55,399 nt of DNA. Source: Rhodothermales bacterium (GTDB lineage Bacteria; Bacteroidota; Rhodothermia; Rhodothermales; Bin80). Shown in pieces: positions 46,630-55,399 of the stretch (its first letter is position 1; every line of letters begins with the position of its first letter). The notes under the pieces were generated by a model. It ran no database searches, was not told the DNA's origin, and saw only the letters and a list, made by a program, of their open reading frames with translations. The DNA is taken from NCBI GenBank assembly GCA_022821385.1, contig JAJEDR010000015.1:1-55399 (forward strand). Direction: 5' to 3'. Position numbers and translations under genes: made by a program.

Positions 46630-48087
46630 TCAGGCTTGGTAAGATCCTGCGGTTACCGGTCCTCCTGATCCAGTCCAGTCGGTGTGAAAAAAGTTTCCCC
46701 GCGCATGATCAAGTCGCTCGTAGGTATGCGCACCAAAATAATCCCTTTGAGCTTGAATTAAATTAGCTGGGCCGCGCGCACGTCGGTAGCCGTCATAGAA
46801 GGAAAGTGCACTGCTGATAGCTGGTATAGGGATACCGGACATGGTAGCTGTTGCAACTGTGCGGCGCCACGCGCCCTGGGCCTCTGAAAGCGCTTTTGAA
46901 AAATAGGGGGCAACCAGCAAACTTTCCATACCTGCTTCGGAGTCGAACGCCTGTTTAATTTTTCCTAGGAAGGCGGACCTGATAATGCAACCGCCTCTCC
47001 ACATGAGGGCGATACTACCGTAGTTAAGGGGCCAGTCATAGGTGTCAGCTGCAGCACGAAGAAGCATGTACCCCTGTGCATAGGACATGATTTTGGAGGC
47101 GTACACGGCTTCATGCAGGTCACGTACCAGCGCGGTGCGGTCGTGTTTGTGTGCCGGTGGAGGCCCGGATAGTACCTTCTCGGCACGAGCCCGCTCGGTG
47201 GTCAGCGAGGAGAGAAACCGGGCAAAGACCGCTTCTCCAATCAGTGTCAGCGGGATTCCAGTATCAAGCGCCGCGATAGCGGTCCATTTTCCGGTCCCTT
47301 TTTGTCCGGCGCTGTCAAGTATCGTATCTAATGTGGACTCTCCCTTTTTGTCCTGATAAGCAAGAATATCCCGTGTGATCTGGATCAAATATGAATCAAG
47401 CGTTCCTGTATTCCAGCGTGCATAGACCTCATACATCTCTTGATTTGAGAGTCCCAGGAGTTCTTTCATAATGTGGTACGATTCCGCAATAATTTGCATG
47501 TCACCGTACTCAATTCCGTTATGAACCATCTTGACAAAATGGCCAGCTCCATTGGGGCCGATCCATTCACAACAGGAGGATCCACCCACCTTAGCGGCGA
47601 CACTTTGCAGGATATGCTTCACATGAGGCCACGCCTCGGGGCTTCCCCCTGGCATAATGCTTGGACCAGTTCGGGCGCCTTCCTCGCCTCCGGATACACC
47701 GGTTCCAATGAAGCGCAAGCCATGTGCTTCCACCTCGCGTGTGCGTCGGATAGTGTCGTGGTAGTTTGAATTTCCCCCGTCAATGATAATATCTCCAGGC
47801 TCCAATAGTGGTATCAGATCGAGGATTGTCTGGTCGGTAGGTGCTCCTGCCTTTACCATCAGCATTACGCGCCGAGGTCGTTTGAGTGCAGCTACAAGTT
47901 CTGCCAGTGAATTTGCGCCCTCAATGGATGTGCCGGAGGCTGGTCCCGCAATAAAATCCGCTACCTTGGAAACTGTGCGGTTGTACACGGCTACCGAAAA
48001 GCCGCGATCGTTCATGTTCAGAACAAGGTTCTGACCCATTACGGCCAGTCCTATCACACCGATGTCGGCAGTGGGATGATTGCTCAT
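46630..48087 (-). CDS. gnd: 6-Phosphogluconate dehydrogenase (decarboxylating)
   Basis: A 485-residue enzyme of the oxidative pentose phosphate pathway making ribulose 5-phosphate, CO2 and NADPH. The N-terminal Rossmann motif is IGLAVMGQNL. The substrate site GVSGGEEGARTGPSIMPGG and the catalytic Lys in FVKMVHNGIEYGDMQ are intact, as is the C-terminal RGNFFHTDWTG. Length is typical of the long-chain (about 470-480 residue) form. It is the first gene of a two-gene unit with the nucleoside hydrolase. Confidence 0.95.
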   Translation of the reverse strand: MSNHPTADIGVIGLAVMGQNLVLNMNDRGFSVAVYNRTVSKVADFIAGPASGTSIEGANSLAELVAALKRPRRVMLMVKAGAPTDQTILDLIPLLEPGDIIIDGGNSNYHDTIRRTREVEAHGLRFIGTGVSGGEEGARTGPSIMPGGSPEAWPHVKHILQSVAAKVGGSSCCEWIGPNGAGHFVKMVHNGIEYGDMQIIAESYHIMKELLGLSNQEMYEVYARWNTGTLDSYLIQITRDILAYQDKKGESTLDTILDSAGQKGTGKWTAIAALDTGIPLTLIGEAVFARFLSSLTTERARAEKVLSGPPPAHKHDRTALVRDLHEAVYASKIMSYAQGYMLLRAAADTYDWPLNYGSIALMWRGGCIIRSAFLGKIKQAFDSEAGMESLLVAPYFSKALSEAQGAWRRTVATATMSGIPIPAISSALSFYDGYRRARGPANLIQAQRDYFGAHTYERLDHARGNFFHTDWTGSGGPVTAGSYQA

Positions 48088-48483
48088 GAATTTGAGTCAA
48101 TTACGTGTTTCTATTATGCGACAGCACATCAAATGCGCTCATTCAGGTCAGCTTGAGCGGCGGTTTAACGCGTTAAGGCTGAGAAAAGCCCCGCAGTACC
48201 GCATTTGCTTTGGCCGTTTCAAAGGACACCCATACCACGTGATAGCCCTCATTTCTGGTCACGTTTATCAAAGGGGCGTGGAATTCATCTTTCCGTTTCT
48301 GTGGCCCGCCGAGATGTATTCTATCTACACAGATTACCGCCGTGCGGCATTGCAGGGCGCAGCATGGCTAGTTACCCTGCAGACGTGGACTGCGAAGGCC
48401 TTCCGCTGTACGGCGCTGCATAAGTCGGACTGATTCCAGACGGCAGGCTTCAATCGCTCGAAGACACACGCTCAGCGGGCGGC
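48088..48483. other. Intergenic region; right part is a duplicated flank
   Basis: About 400 bp. From 48345 onward the sequence is a diverged copy of 50506-50644, the 3' flank of the tandem propeller gene. The left part (48088-48344) has an open frame on the plus strand without recognisable protein character. No terminator is evident. Confidence 0.55.
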
Positions 48484-50331
48484 TCACTTCCGGCGCACCA
48501 GACTGCCCGTTGCGACCTGATTGCCCGCCTCCAGGCGATAGGGGTATACGCCGCTGGGCCAGGATGACGCATCCAGCCGCACCGAATGCGCACCGGCGCT
48601 ATGCCATTCGTCCACGGGCACGGCCATTTCGCGACCGAGAATGTCATAGACCCGCAAGCGAACGTGCGAGGCTTCCGGCAACTCAAAGGTAATGGTGGCT
48701 GCTCCCACGAACGGATTGGGGTAGTGCGCAGTCCACAGACTACTCACAGGCCGTGCGTACTCATCTGCTCGCGCTGTTGTCACTGGCCCATATTTTGCCA
48801 GAAACGCCTTGCTACTGAGGGGAGGCATCGCGAGCGTGTCCACCCCAACGATGATGTGATCCGGCTCGTCCCAATCATTGCGCGCAAACCCGGCAACGTA
48901 CAGTTCACCGCTCGGCATGGGCATTATGCCTGTGACCTTGGAATAATCCGGCCCGGTCACCTGCAGGGTGCGGGCCAGCGTGCCTTCAGCATCGTATTCG
49001 ACGAGCAGACCCGTATGGATTCTGGAGCCCGGGGCGGAGCCATTAGTCAGCACGGTGTCTTCAATCTGAATCTGGTGCCCGTAATAGTAGCCGCCCACAT
49101 ATACGTGGCCGTGCATATCCATTTCGATTTCGGTAAGCGACATATAGCTGTCCGGGATCAACCGGCGCCCCCAGTTCACTGACCCGTCCGGGGAATGCCT
49201 AGTGACAAAGCGCAAGATTCCTTTTTCAGATCCTTGTGGCACCTTGAATGTTGTGTCTCCAACCGCAACCTCAATTCCGTGTGAGCTGTAGCCCACCTCC
49301 CAGGCTAGCGCCAGTTCTCCGTCGTCGCGTGCCGAAAGAATCCAGGGTACAGGCGTCTTTTTGAAGTCATGAGAACCACCATCGGTTTCCACGCCAAAAT
49401 CGCTCGCCGTCCGCAGCCAGCGCAGCTTGCCGGCTGCATCGAAGGACGCGACGACGGCGCCAGATTCCTCCAGCCGCATGCTGTCCGGCTGCCCCTCTGC
49501 GAATACTGTGCCCCTTGAGAAAAAGCCGCCCAGATAGGTATTACCTTCGGCATCCACGTCAAAGCTGGGCTTAGCCGGGCTTGCAAGGGATATATAGTTT
49601 ATAGGGAGGTAACCATCCTCGGTGTAACTCAAACTCACGATCCGGAGTGCCCAGCGTACGTGGCCTTCGTGCGAATAGCTGGCCAAAAATACAGAGCGGA
49701 TGGCGTATGACCGCCCGGCGGGAACATAGGGCACCAGCAGGTGGTCAGGCCCCAATCGCAGCGTATCCAGATAGTAGCCCGTCACATACATATTGCCGGC
49801 ATCGTCTCCTCCGAGCCCCAGGATGTAGGCCGGCGCGTCAAAAATATGGTCCACAGGCCAAGCCAGATAGGTGGCCTGCAGCGAATCTCCGGCATCTGAA
49901 TAGCGGTTGATTAGTATTCCCCCATACTCTGCCCACCGGCTGGCCGGAGGACTAACCCCCCTTATCGCACCCTCGTTCGTCCAGACGTATGGGCCCTGTG
50001 CCACTACGGTGTGGATGGATGAAGCATACGACCAACCGAATAGCGCGCCCGGTCTGACCCAGCGTACGTTTCCGTCCGCAGCAATCCGCGCAAGAAAGGT
50101 CTGGTTGAGCGCTGGCGCGAAGACGGTTCCGTCGGACCAGCGGATTGCGTTCTTGTCCGCAACCCGGCCCGACATGTATACGGAGCCTCCCGCATCTGCA
50201 TCCAGACCAAAATTGTTGATCGCATCCTCTACTTCGAGGATCCAGGTAGCCGGCTCGAAGGACTGCGCCCGCACAGCGTCCAGCCGGGGCAGTACCATGG
50301 AAACCAGAAAGAGGAAAATGATTCGACGCAT
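48484..50331 (-). CDS. Secreted beta-propeller protein with type IX sorting domain, copy 1
   Basis: 615 residues from the ATG at 50331; an upstream in-frame ATG at 50355 is not shared with the paralogue. The signal peptide is IIFLFLVSMVLPRLDAVRAQ. The body has SBBP/propeller-like repeats of the type GLDADAGGSVYMSGR, LGGDDAGNMYVTGYYLDTLRLG, DVDAEGNTYLGGFFSRG, and DMHGHVYVGGYYYGHQIQI, where each blade has a G-x-V/T-Y-x-x-G strand. The C-terminal domain (HYPNPFVG, RVYDILGREMAVPVDEW) is a type IX secretion signal, so the protein is probably displayed or released outside the cell. The function is unknown. It is a close tandem copy of the gene at 50645-52492. Confidence 0.8.
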   Translation of the reverse strand: MRRIIFLFLVSMVLPRLDAVRAQSFEPATWILEVEDAINNFGLDADAGGSVYMSGRVADKNAIRWSDGTVFAPALNQTFLARIAADGNVRWVRPGALFGWSYASSIHTVVAQGPYVWTNEGAIRGVSPPASRWAEYGGILINRYSDAGDSLQATYLAWPVDHIFDAPAYILGLGGDDAGNMYVTGYYLDTLRLGPDHLLVPYVPAGRSYAIRSVFLASYSHEGHVRWALRIVSLSYTEDGYLPINYISLASPAKPSFDVDAEGNTYLGGFFSRGTVFAEGQPDSMRLEESGAVVASFDAAGKLRWLRTASDFGVETDGGSHDFKKTPVPWILSARDDGELALAWEVGYSSHGIEVAVGDTTFKVPQGSEKGILRFVTRHSPDGSVNWGRRLIPDSYMSLTEIEMDMHGHVYVGGYYYGHQIQIEDTVLTNGSAPGSRIHTGLLVEYDAEGTLARTLQVTGPDYSKVTGIMPMPSGELYVAGFARNDWDEPDHIIVGVDTLAMPPLSSKAFLAKYGPVTTARADEYARPVSSLWTAHYPNPFVGAATITFELPEASHVRLRVYDILGREMAVPVDEWHSAGAHSVRLDASSWPSGVYPYRLEAGNQVATGSLVRRK

Positions 50332-50369
50332 CGGAGATTCCCTAGAGATCCTCAATACTTAAAGTACAC

Positions 50370-50443
50370 CTATTTGACCAGAGACACCCAGTGGGTTCAA
50401 TGCTGCCGGGCGGATTCCATGCGGAGCAGGTACATGCCGCACG
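50370..50443 (-). pseudogene. Stranded 3' fragment of the secreted peptidase gene
   Basis: On the minus strand this reads GMYLLRMESARQH, a stop (TGA at 50397-50399), then THWVSLVK and a stop. It is the counterpart of GIYLLRMETARQHWTHWVSLVK at the end of the gene at 52529-55138. A Trp codon has become TGA and there is no start or upstream coding part, so it is a duplication leftover. It shows that the repeat unit extended into the upstream gene. Confidence 0.8.
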
Positions 50444-50505
50444 GCTGTTCCGGTGTCCGGGTATTTCCCGGTAAGGAGATCGCCTGTTGGCCGCGGTGCG
50501 TTTGC

Positions 50506-52602
50506 GCGGCATTGCAGGGCGCAGCGAGGCTCCCTACACTGTAGACGTGGACCTCGAAGGCCTTTCGCAGTACGGCACCGCAAAAGTCGGACTGATTCCA
50601 GGCGGCAAGCTTCAATCGCTTGAGACACACGCTCAGCGGGCTGGTCACTTCTGGCGCACCAGACTGCCCGTTGCGACCTGATTGCCCGCCTCCAGGCGGT
50701 ACAGGTATACGCCGCTGGGCCAGGATGACGCATCCATCCGCACGGAATGCGCACCGGCACTGTGCCATTTGTCCACGAGCACGGCCATTTCGCGACCGAT
50801 AACATCGTAGACCCGTAAGCGAACGTGTGAGGCTTCCGGCAACCCGTAGGTAAGCGTGGCTGCTCCTGCAAACGGGTTGGGATAGTGCGCAGTCCACAGG
50901 CTTCCCACAGGCCGTACGTAATCAACTGCGCGCGCTGTTGTTACTGCTCCATACTTTGCCAGAAACGCCTTGCTACCGCGCGGAGGCATCGCGAGCGTGT
51001 CCACTCCAACGATGACCTGATCCGGACCGTCCCGACCCCAACTGCGCGCATATCCCCCAACGTACAGGTCGCCGCCCGGCATGGGCATCATGCCGGTGAC
51101 CTTGGAATGATCCGGCCCGGTCACCTGCAGGGTGCGGGCCAGGGTGCCTTCCGCATCGTATTCGACGAGCAGACCAGTCACGGTTCTGGAGCCATTGGTC
51201 AGCACGGTGTCTTCAATTTGAATCTGGTGGCCGTAATAGTAGCCGCCCACGTATACGTGCCCGTGCATATCCATTTCGATTTCGGTGAGCTCCACGAAAT
51301 CACTGGCAGTCAACCGGCGCACCCAATGCAGCGACCCGTCCGGGGCATGGCGCGTCACAAAATACAGGTACCCACGCTCAGCGTTGTATGGCACCGTGAA
51401 GGTCGTGTCTCCTACCGCTACTTCGATTCCGAGTGAGCTGTACTCCACCCTCCAGGCAAGGGCCAGTTCTCCGTCGTCGCGTGCCGAAAGAATCCACGGT
51501 ACAGTCGTATTTGCGGCGTGACGAAAATTGTCACCGGGATAGGCCCGATAGTCGGCTTTCACGCCAAGATCGCTCGCCGTCCGCAGCCAGCGCAACTTGC
51601 CGGCTGCGTCAAAGGACGCGACGACGCCATCGGATTCCTCCAGACGCACACTGTCCGGCTGCCCCTCTGCGAATAATGTGCCCCTTGAGAAAAAGCCGCC
51701 CAGATAGGTATTCCCCCCGGCATCCACGTCAAAGCTCGGCTTGGCCTGGTCAGCATAATGGGATATGAAGCTGAGAGGTATATTACCATCGGTACCGTGA
51801 CTCGCCATCCTGTACGCCCAGCGCACATTGCCTTCGGGCGAATAGCTGGCCAGGAATACGGTTCGGAAAGAGGAAGTTCCATAAACCCACGGCGCCAGCA
51901 TATACTCAGGCCCCAATCGCAGCGTATCCAGATAGTAGCCCGTCGCATACACGTTGCCGGCATCGTCTCCGCCGAGCCCCATGATGTAGGCCGGCGCGTC
52001 GTAAAGGATGTCCACTGGCCCAGCCAGATAGGTGGCCTGCAGCGAATCTCCAGCATCTGAATAGCGGTTGATAAGTATTCCCCCGAACTCTTCCCATCGG
52101 GTGGTCGGGGGACTACCTCCCCTTAGCTGACCCTCGTTTGTCCAGACGTACGGGCCCTGTGCCACTACGGTGTGGATGGATATGCGATAATCACCTAAAT
52201 ACAGCGCACCCGGTCTGACCCAGCGCACGCTTCCGTCCGCGGCAATCCGCGCAAGAAAATTATAGTTGTACTCCGGCACGAATACTGTTCCGTCGGACCA
52301 GCGGATTGCGTTCCGATCCGGAACGTAGCCCGACATGTAAACGGAGCCTCCCGCATCTGCATCCAGACCAAAATTGTTGACCACCTCCTCTGCTTCGAGG
52401 ATCCAGGTGGCCGACTCGAAGGACTGCGCCCGGATAGCGTCCAGCCGGGGCAGGATCATGGAAACCAGAAAGAGGAAAATGATTCGGCGCATCGAAGAGC
52501 CCCTAGAGATCCTCGGTAGAATATATACCTATTTGACCAGAGAAACCCAGTGGGTCCAATGCTGCCGGGCGGTTTCCATACGGAGCAGGTATATGCCGCT
52601 CG
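50506..52602 (-). repeat. 2.16-kb tandem direct repeat, copy 2
   Basis: The likely parental copy: its right edge is still continuous with the intact peptidase gene. It includes the propeller gene at 50645-52492 and a 139-bp 3' flank. The interval 50444-50505 between the two copies has no counterpart in either, so it may be filler DNA at the junction or diverged sequence. Confidence 0.78.
50645..52492 (-). CDS. Secreted beta-propeller protein with type IX sorting domain, copy 2
   Basis: 615 residues, the same length and layout as the gene at 48484-50331. Signal peptide IIFLFLVSMILPRLDAIRAQ; propeller strands GLDADAGGSVYMSGYVPD, LGGDDAGNVYATGYYLDTLRLG, DVDAGGNTYLGGFF, DMHGHVYVGGYYYGHQ; C-terminal sorting domain HYPNPFAG, RVYDVIGREMAVLVDKW. 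Differences from copy 1 cluster in loops (for example EYMLAPWVYGTSSF versus DHLLVPYVPAGRSY), with small insertions such as a YRAYPGDNFRHAANT stretch, which suggests the copies are diverging at the exposed surface. It is 36 bp downstream of the peptidase gene and probably co-transcribed. Confidence 0.8.
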   Translation of the reverse strand: MRRIIFLFLVSMILPRLDAIRAQSFESATWILEAEEVVNNFGLDADAGGSVYMSGYVPDRNAIRWSDGTVFVPEYNYNFLARIAADGSVRWVRPGALYLGDYRISIHTVVAQGPYVWTNEGQLRGGSPPTTRWEEFGGILINRYSDAGDSLQATYLAGPVDILYDAPAYIMGLGGDDAGNVYATGYYLDTLRLGPEYMLAPWVYGTSSFRTVFLASYSPEGNVRWAYRMASHGTDGNIPLSFISHYADQAKPSFDVDAGGNTYLGGFFSRGTLFAEGQPDSVRLEESDGVVASFDAAGKLRWLRTASDLGVKADYRAYPGDNFRHAANTTVPWILSARDDGELALAWRVEYSSLGIEVAVGDTTFTVPYNAERGYLYFVTRHAPDGSLHWVRRLTASDFVELTEIEMDMHGHVYVGGYYYGHQIQIEDTVLTNGSRTVTGLLVEYDAEGTLARTLQVTGPDHSKVTGMMPMPGGDLYVGGYARSWGRDGPDQVIVGVDTLAMPPRGSKAFLAKYGAVTTARAVDYVRPVGSLWTAHYPNPFAGAATLTYGLPEASHVRLRVYDVIGREMAVLVDKWHSAGAHSVRMDASSWPSGVYLYRLEAGNQVATGSLVRQK

Positions 52603-55138
52603 GCAGGTGGGCAGCCTCGAACTTTACCGAATGTGTTCCGGCCGCCATGTCGGAATCTGCCAGCACGGCGACGCGGCGCCCGAGTACATCGTAAACCCGT
52701 AGCCGCACCGGCCCGGTTTCTGCCAGCGAAAAACGGACGGTTGTTATCGGATTAAAGGGGTTTGGATACGCCCCGTCCAGCGAAGTCTCGGTGCGGGTCG
52801 CCACTGAATCGGATTGTAAGCCGTTAACCTGATTCGATTGTGAGACCATAGACTGGGTAACATTGCCACCGCTGCCACCCGGCGCGTATTTCACGTCCAC
52901 CGAGTAGGTGCTGATCGTTTCATCAGGCATAGTGTAGGCTTTGTAGGCTGCCACCCTGTAATAGTATACCGAGGAGCCCGGGCAGGTGACCGCCGTGTCC
53001 TCGTACGATTTGACTCCGGTAGTGTTAGTGGTGTTTGCAGGAATTGGAGTAAGATTCGCAATTTGGCTCCATGCGCCACTTCCTTCTTTCCGTTCGACAA
53101 CGTAGCCGGATTCATAGACTGAATTGTCGCTCCACTCCAGCTGCAAGTGCCTGGATCCAGTGCCGGAAGTCGGACAGGTCACGTCTAGCTCGTCAGGCAT
53201 GTTCGGACCCCCCATTCTGCGTTTCGCAAAGGCTTTCTCAATTGCATTCGCGTGGGTTGTAGCGCGAACAGTAGCAGCCGTCGTAAATGCGACTCTGAAT
53301 TCAACTGGGCCTGTGCCTTCCGAGGTCATTTGGAGCGCCTCCATCAGAAATGATGCGGCCTTGCTTTCGAAGCCCTTGATTTCCCACGCGGCTGCTGCCA
53401 GCGCCATTCCAGATTTGTAGATGTTCGCCTCATTCACATTGTGCGTGAAAGCTCTGCATGCCTCCTTCCATGCGTTTACACGTGGGGTTGTTTTCCCCCC
53501 ATACACCCAAAAGCACGTCTGGGCCAGGTTTCTCCACGCGACCGGGCCATCAGGGCTGGCTACCGGTCCTCCAAACAGCGAATGGCCCGTTTTGTCAGCC
53601 GTAAAGAAGTCGGCGGTTCCCTCTCTGATTGCCCAGAGATCAAAATCGCCAGATTCAGAGGTTGAAGTATATATTGAATACTGTACTGCGTGGCCATATT
53701 CATGCAGGATAATGTCGCTTGACCTTCCGTACTTGCCCCCTAAGTCTATGATTGTATACGCCTTGGTTGGACTTGCCCACGCATTGTCCTGATCCACTAC
53801 CTTGATTTTGATTTGATTGCCATCCAATCCTGTGAATTTCAGTGATGTCTTAAAATATTCGTGCATTACCCGGGCATGATAGAGTCCGTTCAGCGCCACG
53901 GCCGTATGGCCGTATTCCCCTAATCTGCCCCAGCCCCAGTCGTAACTCAGAGTGGCTGGTCCATTGACATTCAGCGTGAAGCTCTGCGAGGTATCACAGT
54001 CTGTCAGGACAGTGGATTCCACGAATGCGACATCGTTTGCCATCGAAAAGGTCACCGTGTAGGTGCCGTGCCTGGGCACAATGGCCGAATAATTCCCGCC
54101 GTCATCTGCGTAGCCGGTGCAGTTGAAACTACTGCTTCCGGCCCCGGTAATCGAATACTTCGCCCCCGGAAACGCCGCGGAAATGGTTTTGTCGAGCGCG
54201 CTATTCTTATCGTTCGGTGTCTCGTGGTAGTTCAGGGACACCTGGCCGGATATCTTGGGCCCGCTCCCACTGCTCGAGCAAAGGATCGCCGGCATGGTGC
54301 CTGCGCCAGCCCGTCTGCGAACCGCAACGTCGTGCTGGAACAGCGGCAATGGGGCTGCCACGACGACCGGCGACGCGATGGGAGCCTCCGCCCGGTGCTC
54401 GTCCGATACATGCGTTACCCCGCCGGTATTTTCATACTCTCCCAGGATTTTCCCCTCATGCGCGTCAATCAGGTAGGTTTTGCTCAGCGGCGACTTGAGG
54501 TCATAGTCGAAGACGACGACTTCCCAGGCGAGAGCGAAGGTGTAGGCGTTTTCCAGTTCCACGGGGACGATGACCAGGTCGGTTTTCACGCGCCCCTGCG
54601 CACTTTCAACCGAGGCGGCTCCGAGCGCGATCCGGAGGGCGTCCGCGCTGCTGAGGCTTGGTTTGGTGTTGACCTGGACTCTTGGGAACAGGGCGGCCGC
54701 TGCCCCAACGAGCGTTCCGTTATTGAGGACCGAAAGGACGAGATCCGCCGCCCAGACCCGGACGTTGTCGTAGACCTGGGGGTAGCGGACGAACCACATC
54801 CTGTTGTTGGTGGAAATCCTCGGAGTTCCCAATTGCCTGGTGTCCAGCCCGAAGACATTCTTGTGGGCGTCCACGAAGTCATCCGCGGCGGATTCGACGC
54901 CGAACTCGCTGGAGAGTGTCAAGGGCGTGCCGAGGGTAAAGTCGAGCGAGTCCGTGTCGATGATCCAGGTAGGGGTGCCGTTGATTTCGTTGACGTAGGC
55001 GGCGAACTGCTTGCCGCCGTGCTCGAGGAGCCGCGGGTAGCGGACTTGTTGCTGCGCATTGGCAAGTTGTGGCGCGGCGATCAGGGCCAGCAGCATGCAG
55101 AAGGTGCGCAGACTGAACGGTTGTAGTGACAGGGTCAT
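52529..55138 (-). CDS. Secreted gluzincin metallopeptidase (HEYGH) with type IX sorting domain
   Basis: 869 residues from the ATG at 55138; the ATG at 55174 adds 12 polar residues before the signal peptide. Order: signal peptide ending ANAQ; an FTP/PepSY-like propeptide to about residue 235 (VESAADDFVDAHKNVFGLD, WEVVVFDYDL, TYLIDAHEGKIL); a beta-rich region; the catalytic domain with zinc motif HEYGH at 479-483 and the downstream Glu in IREGTADFF (Glu506); a fibronectin-III-like segment (LQLEWSDNSVYESGYVVERK); and the C-terminal sorting domain (AYPNPFNP, RVYDVLGRRVAVLAD). This fits M4/M36-type secreted proteases. GC is clearly higher in the part encoding the first 300 residues than in the catalytic part. 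Confidence 0.82.
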   Translation of the reverse strand: MTLSLQPFSLRTFCMLLALIAAPQLANAQQQVRYPRLLEHGGKQFAAYVNEINGTPTWIIDTDSLDFTLGTPLTLSSEFGVESAADDFVDAHKNVFGLDTRQLGTPRISTNNRMWFVRYPQVYDNVRVWAADLVLSVLNNGTLVGAAAALFPRVQVNTKPSLSSADALRIALGAASVESAQGRVKTDLVIVPVELENAYTFALAWEVVVFDYDLKSPLSKTYLIDAHEGKILGEYENTGGVTHVSDEHRAEAPIASPVVVAAPLPLFQHDVAVRRRAGAGTMPAILCSSSGSGPKISGQVSLNYHETPNDKNSALDKTISAAFPGAKYSITGAGSSSFNCTGYADDGGNYSAIVPRHGTYTVTFSMANDVAFVESTVLTDCDTSQSFTLNVNGPATLSYDWGWGRLGEYGHTAVALNGLYHARVMHEYFKTSLKFTGLDGNQIKIKVVDQDNAWASPTKAYTIIDLGGKYGRSSDIILHEYGHAVQYSIYTSTSESGDFDLWAIREGTADFFTADKTGHSLFGGPVASPDGPVAWRNLAQTCFWVYGGKTTPRVNAWKEACRAFTHNVNEANIYKSGMALAAAAWEIKGFESKAASFLMEALQMTSEGTGPVEFRVAFTTAATVRATTHANAIEKAFAKRRMGGPNMPDELDVTCPTSGTGSRHLQLEWSDNSVYESGYVVERKEGSGAWSQIANLTPIPANTTNTTGVKSYEDTAVTCPGSSVYYYRVAAYKAYTMPDETISTYSVDVKYAPGGSGGNVTQSMVSQSNQVNGLQSDSVATRTETSLDGAYPNPFNPITTVRFSLAETGPVRLRVYDVLGRRVAVLADSDMAAGTHSVKFEAAHLPSGIYLLRMETARQHWTHWVSLVK

Positions 55139-55200
55139 TTTACTTGTGTCGATAATTACAAAATGGTTGTGCATGGATTGTGAACGTGTTGGAATCTGGA

Positions 55201-55240: not shown

Positions 55241-55399
55241 CTAGCTGCTGCCAGCGACGCTGACCGTGAAGGTTTGCGTTGCGCTGCCGTCGCGGTCAGT
55301 GGCGGTGACCTCAACATTGATCCTGCCGGGAGTGCTGCCAGGATCCATGGTGAGGGTGCTGCCGGACATGCGAACCGACACATAATCCGGAATGCGCGG
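55241..55399 (-). CDS. C-terminus of a secreted Ig-like or cadherin-like protein (partial)
   Basis: The last 52 codons of a gene entering from the window edge, ending in TAG at 55241. The text GRINVEVTATDRDGSATQTF followed by TVSVAGSS is typical of the last strand pair of Ig-like or cadherin-like modules in large surface proteins. No sorting domain is present at this terminus. The main body lies outside the window, so its function cannot be judged. It ends just before a strong GC hairpin and about 100 bp upstream of the peptidase gene. Confidence 0.5.
   Translation of the reverse strand, partial: PRIPDYVSVRMSGSTLTMDPGSTPGRINVEVTATDRDGSATQTFTVSVAGSS

Follow-up and report, generated by a model that had tools for sequence, protein, structure and literature searches.

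Closest described systems

Multigene surface-protein families with gene conversion, of the antigenic-variation type, are one comparison. The propeller family described here shares with them several copies, mosaic variable parts, a conserved frame and recombining paralogues. No expression site with silent cassettes was seen, all 7 of 7 close copies possessing full open frames, and the family is not classed as an antigenic-variation system. In Porphyromonas gingivalis, surface adhesins and gingipains diversify by domain rearrangement and allelic exchange (PMC5266723). Common features are T9SS-exported surface proteins, a protease linked to non-protease partners and recombining paralogues; in P. 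gingivalis the units concerned are modular adhesin domains, and here they are loop tracts inside one propeller as well as entire blocks at separate loci. Two further points of comparison are the type A cargo proteins of the T9SS and the SBBP-type propeller forming the C-terminal domain of CylK.

The window, i.e. the whole stretch of 55,399 nucleotides analysed, is contig C45 of the host genome (G000, 96 contigs) and has its right end at 55399. All genes and gene-derived segments located below lie on its minus strand. It encodes a secreted metallopeptidase (52529..55174, 881 aa), followed by a proximal (50645..52492, 615 aa) and a distal propeller gene (48484..50331, 615 aa), whose products share 78% amino acid identity. 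The most likely start of the distal gene is ATG 50331, giving the MRRIIF... found in every copy, rather than TTG 50355. Both propellers and the peptidase carry the Por secretion tail of T9SS type A cargo (PF18962/TIGR04183), recognized here by sequence and passing the curated Pfam and NCBIfam cut-offs in all three. The propeller sorting domains (50672..50884, residues 537-607, in the proximal and 48511..48723 in the distal gene) scored 33.6 and 34.6 bits against a cut-off of 27, and 36.3 and 35.9 against 23. Both propellers are predicted T9SS type A cargo; what sets them apart from described cargo is the propeller as the domain that would be exported.

Behind a signal peptide-like start, a propeller covers about residues 30-515. 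Its sole PDB profile match was CylK (E 3e-9). The SBBP repeat PF06739 was reached by only two of the 11 members, with a best E of 5e-4. An AlphaFold2 model from a four-sequence alignment was of mediocre quality (mean pLDDT 68, pTM 0.70). In a fold comparison the propeller of CylK scored VIA Z 32.7 (rmsd 3.3 over 369 residues) and seven-bladed WD40 propellers about 27. On this model the fold is clearly that of a seven-bladed beta-propeller, in agreement with the identity proposed in the first-pass annotation. The window propellers are without the CylK N-terminal domain, and the likeness is one of sequence and modelled fold. In the peptidase, HEYGH (491) and REGTADFF (517) form what we take to be a gluzincin-like arrangement, the metallopeptidase type being assigned from the motif. 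A fibronectin-like part and the C-terminal sorting domain complete the protein. No catalytic-domain family exceeded the cut-off in Pfam or NCBIfam, and no solved relative was detected besides fibronectin-like and chance matches.

Structure of the tandem duplication

Positions 48344-50445 and 50506-52604 are direct repeats with a piecewise identity of 78-94%. A repeat scan yielded 11 two-copy direct-repeat families with a spacing of 2152-2170, among them 48344-48461/50506-50623 (86%), 48462-48761/50623-50922 (89%), 50042-50341/52203-52502 (88%) and the 81 bp of 50365-50445/52524-52604 (91%). BLAST merges the pieces into one match of 50445..48344 to 52604..50506 (82.9% over 2134 columns, E=0). 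The copies stand head-to-tail with a novel joint built from both unit ends. The window pair is a genuine tandem duplication, the duplicated unit starting within the peptidase gene at its 3' end, as proposed in the first-pass annotation, which had noted the peptidase fragment between the propeller genes.

This fragment, first given as 74 bp, is real and comprises the terminal 75 bp of the peptidase coding sequence (50370..50444) plus a few bases on each side. Translated in the frame of the peptidase, 50444..50370 gives PCGMYLLRMESARQH, stop, THWVSLVK, stop, and the peptidase itself (52603..52529) reads PSGIYLLRMETARQHWTHWVSLVK followed by its stop. The frame is kept throughout except for the Trp codon changed from TGG to TGA at 50397-50399, which had been recognized correctly. 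Only the window has the TGA; at C58, a second locus of the host genome with a tandem pair, the codon is TGG.

The joint (50440..50445) consists of GCCG(A/T)G, common to the peptidase end and to the native 3' flank seen behind the distal C58 copy. That flank reads GGAACCGCCGAGATG and the peptidase CACCTGCCGAGCGGC, with the six bases GCCGAG in common. At the corresponding place of a third locus, C29, the sequence is GAACAGTCGGGG, so that the apparent microhomology can be deduced from C58 only. The sequence across the joint, ...GGACACCGGAACAGCCG(A/T)GCGGC..., is the same in the window and at C58, both being identical from GAAATACCCGGACACCGGAACAGCCG to within one base of GCGGC. An identical joint at two loci most likely arose once, before the two separated. 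Recombination between the sorting domains of peptidase and propeller was considered as a route to the duplication and rejected, the joint lying about 200 bp past the propeller stop and outside the sorting domain.

The filler between fragment and proximal gene had been placed at 50444-50505, with the suggestion that its origin be examined. The segment exists, spanning 50446..50505, but is the propeller's own 3' flank, and a foreign source is rejected as needless. When the 3' flanks of every copy are aligned, it is seen also behind C29, both C58 copies and the copy on contig C123 of a related genome, G009. It is missing only from the distal window copy, because the flank of this copy is cut at 48344; the G009 C8 copy diverges earlier and C65 of the host genome is a remnant. 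The part that follows the filler in the proximal gene's 3' flank (50506..50644) is common with the distal copy (48344-48483). This flank is not a widespread repeat, since matches occurred in 4 of 10 genomes searched. The cut at 48344 coincides with the edge where homology to the 6-phosphogluconate dehydrogenase (6PGD) region of the relatives G004 and G008 ends. Homology to the 6PGD flank stops at 48317 (G004) and 48332 (G008) and family homology begins at 48344, leaving 48318..48343, without strand, as the left edge of the inserted block. Rfam gave no matches in the window part searched.

The first-pass annotation had also taken the proximal gene as parental and the distal one as derived. This is not supported, as a tandem joint has no parent: it fixes the edge of the unit and does not identify the original gene. 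Native surroundings are kept on the 5' side by the proximal copy and on the 3' side by the distal C58 copy, and the latter has further flank past the joint point in common with the single C29 copy. Relative-rate tests showed no difference between the two window copies (121 v 134 and 124 v 123 private changes, p 0.42 and 0.95). In the C58 pair the distal copy had more private changes with one of two outgroups (p 0.016). A whole-gene tree grouped the two distal copies (92) and not the two proximal ones; with distant outgroups, support at most within-family nodes was weak, and no rooting was taken from it.

Copies of the family in the host and its relatives

The host genome contains five full-length close copies at three loci, namely the window pair, one copy on C29 (region L030) and the tandem pair on C58 (L031), with amino acid identities of 78-100%. 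The remnant on C65 (L033) is a propeller 3' part carrying a TGA. About 2 kb from it, L033:5925-6221 is presumably an IS21-like transposase fragment. Close copies were sought in 59 genomes and, among the matches listed (at most 21 candidates scored in most genomes), occurred only in the host and in G009, a member of the same genus. All compared genomes are contig sets and at least one is a metagenome bin: G009 is "Rhodothermaceae bacterium bin80" from the sponge Aplysina aerophoba (PMC5649159). The host bacterium is related to this sponge symbiont. A literature search returned no published description of the propeller family, which does not prove that none exists.

The C58 block and the window are collinear across 4399 columns (86.4%), and cross pairs reach 82.7-83.7%. 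C58 and C29 have only broken peptidase 3' ends (with a TAG in C58 and a frame shift in C29). The single-copy state, one propeller following a peptidase or its end, is found at C29 and on G009 C123; the G009 C8 locus is cut by a contig end. None of the loci with a single propeller has the internal fragment, and loops and strands did not diverge equally (see below), so that neither outcome named in the first-pass annotation as refuting it was seen. The peptidase is present in 6 of 59 genomes, including 2 of 10 within the genus. In G026 and G029, which belong to other families, a related peptidase lies directly upstream of a related propeller, so this gene pair is probably old.

Several further observations concern these genes. 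The peptidase on G009 C123 (L037:5116-7587) has lost the homologous N-terminal 77 residues, signal peptide included, and contig C17 of G009 has an intact first part of the peptidase followed by unrelated sequence. At L032:1245-2070 on contig C7 of the host, a broken 3' part resembling the peptidase immediately precedes a B-type propeller, so that the order of peptidase and propeller recurs in a distant paralogue. Contigs C73 and C74 of the host (L035, L036) both break off within a B-type propeller, at positions that correspond to one and the same base in the G009 gene, and are 91% alike; the true propeller copy number is probably underestimated.

Divergence on one face of the propeller

The first-pass annotation stated that the copies diverged mostly in loops. 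This was borne out and can be narrowed to one face. In the window pair pN was 0.190 in loops and 0.087 in strands, a ratio of 2.18 reached by 0 of 486 circular shifts, so that loops and strands are clearly unequal. With blades assigned by hand on the model of mean pLDDT 68, pN was 0.219 in BC and DA loops, 0.053 in AB and CD turns and 0.075 in strands (loops vs turns, Fisher 2e-6), and 11 of 11 indel blocks fell in BC/DA loops. AB and CD turns were conserved as strongly as the strands, and the sorting domain stayed conserved too. The BC and DA loops of a propeller lie on the same face. On the model, amino acid change thus falls mainly, and indels fall wholly, on one face. As a control, the ratio of BC+DA to strand pN was 1.3-1.6 in four pairs of B-type propellers of the genus vs 2.1-3.3 in five pairs of this family.

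The further claim that this pattern reflects adaptation of exposed surfaces is not supported. In the window pair pN/pS stayed below 1 in every class, the variable face reaching 0.62; synonymous divergence is elevated in the same places, and segments have been exchanged between copies (see below). A value above 1 was found for the propellers only in the youngest pair, G009 C123 and C8 (BC+DA pN/pS 1.18, a point estimate), which relaxed constraint on long loops would also fit. The G009 peptidase copies reached a pN/pS of up to 1.37 in parts (lowest one-sided Fisher 0.101). With no peptidase region significantly above 1, positive selection is rejected for now.

Redundant copies with long loops may simply tolerate change, with neither selection for diversity nor a change of function. 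We regard this relaxation of constraint as the strongest competing explanation and as quite plausible, if short of an even chance. It accords with pN/pS values at or below about 1 throughout, with values near 1 in the G009 peptidase copies (one-sided Fisher 0.1-0.4 where the ratio exceeds 1) and with the broken remnants, i.e. the C65 TGA, the TAG in the C58 peptidase end and the frame shift in that of C29. It accounts less well for intact propeller frames in every close copy of the host and G009, for the conservation of strands, AB/CD turns and sorting domain, and for the weaker loop-strand contrast of B-type propellers in the same genus. Diversification of one face is observed; its cause may be selection or tolerance.

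Empty sites and probable transfer between species

Comparable relatives of the genus are without the block at the three host loci. C58 has a clean empty site, with 15 bp in G008 and 51 bp in G009 where the host has about 4.8 kb. At the window locus, the conserved neighbour is the 6PGD gene (46630..48087). In G004, G008 and G009 its flank runs on into a sulfatase as upstream neighbour and not into the block, and no close copy of this sulfatase was found in the host genome. At C29 homology of the same three genomes ends at 2333-2342 of L030. By eye and BLAST, no transposase or mobility gene, terminal repeats, target duplication or attC was seen at the block edges at C58 and C29. Rfam applied to L030, L031 and L037 gave a tRNA and a sub-threshold DicF match; the tRNA gene (L031:8577-8660, minus strand) lies about 650 bp past the right edge of the C58 block.

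Two further segments were noted on C29. About 320 bp of extra DNA (L030:2564-2886) lie within the 3' flank common to C29 and the distal C58 copy, with a 4-base edge overlap, and part of them resembles G004 C60:6384-6581 (72%). Beside a sorting-domain gene, the ~465-bp segment L030:5447-5911 is repeated at many places of G009 with 73-95% identity, as if, in G009, DNA near the ends of sorting-domain genes behaved like a dispersed repeat.

Propeller dS between the host and G009 was 0.216-0.278 in 10 of 10 cross pairs, vs 0.358-0.683 in 10 flanking genes (11 tried, one without match). GC3 was 0.66-0.67 in the block vs 0.51-0.56 in three neighbours. The low dS between species and the distinct GC3 make transfer or exchange between species likely on sequence grounds, though not proven; codon bias could account for part of the low dS.

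The same values would fit a repeated import of diverged copies, by which the two window genes came from different sources and not from one duplication, and in some segments the distal copy is indeed closest to the G009 copies. The peptidase fragment and the native 3' flank at the joint are nevertheless the residue of a tandem duplication and recur at C58, and we consider such an import unlikely.

Recombination between copies

The propeller copies are mosaics of one another. At all four window sizes used, the PHI test rejected clonal descent (0 of 2000 permutations for each). None of 60 null simulations using the tree and the observed local rates gave p<=0.005, and their lowest statistic ratio was 0.954 vs 0.80 observed. 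A triplet test was positive for 22 of 210 ordered triplets, each exceeded by 0 of 400 permutations. Trees of segments conflict with a support of 94-99, the distal window copy grouping with the G009 copies in one (99) and with the distal C58 copy in another (98). Synonymous divergence is clustered as well (r 0.68 in the window pair and 0.81 across the full set of 21 pairs; in neither case did any of 500 shuffles reach the value). Since segments have been exchanged, the differences between copies are not a simple build-up after one duplication.

This bears on the scenario of the first-pass annotation, in which a single local tandem duplication with the peptidase-side copy as parent was followed by independent divergence, fastest in loops under positive selection. 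The repeats and the fragment are real and so is the excess of loop over strand pN. The recurrence of the joint at C58, with five full copies at three loci, and the mosaic structure already disfavour it, to which come the clustered synonymous divergence, the low pN/pS of the variable face and the symmetric rates of the window pair; we hold it to be quite improbable. Assembly chimeras of similar copies are the least probable explanation of all. In their favour, the genomes consist of contigs, with a metagenome bin among them, and another propeller type is cut by the ends of C73 and C74. Against them, no pair among the seven copies has an identical stretch longer than 81 nt (the longest being mostly 39-68), which is shorter than common reads, each locus has distinct flanks and the same loop types occur in the separate assembly of G009.

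Implications

Taken together, the pair is probably one locus of a small, dispersed and recombining family of T9SS-exported seven-bladed propellers linked to a secreted metallopeptidase, a reading in which we have good though not full confidence. A tandem duplication joined the propeller 3' flank to the final 25 codons of the peptidase gene lying upstream, possibly by illegitimate recombination at the 6-bp microhomology. Blocks of peptidase 3' end and one or more propellers sit at three sites of the host genome. The copies appear to go on swapping tracts by homologous recombination, and the block may move between species too. The face that usually binds ligands in propellers is the face on which change falls here; the variable face may thus be a putative binding surface and the family a set of surface binders of differing specificity. 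A small recombining family of secreted putative binding proteins is the likely description, and its general kind is already known. More tentatively, and in our estimate somewhat doubtful, the family might be a mobile repertoire of a sponge-associated lineage, in which blocks are copied to loci and species, BC/DA tracts are traded and putative surface binders are shuffled.

The locus carries a warning, as loop-rich divergence of paralogues may stem from exchanged tracts and does not imply adaptation. The duplication joint at two loci serves as a marker of relative age, and the relatives offer single-copy and empty sites. The window thereby represents a testable case of the diversification of exported surface proteins in an uncultured lineage.
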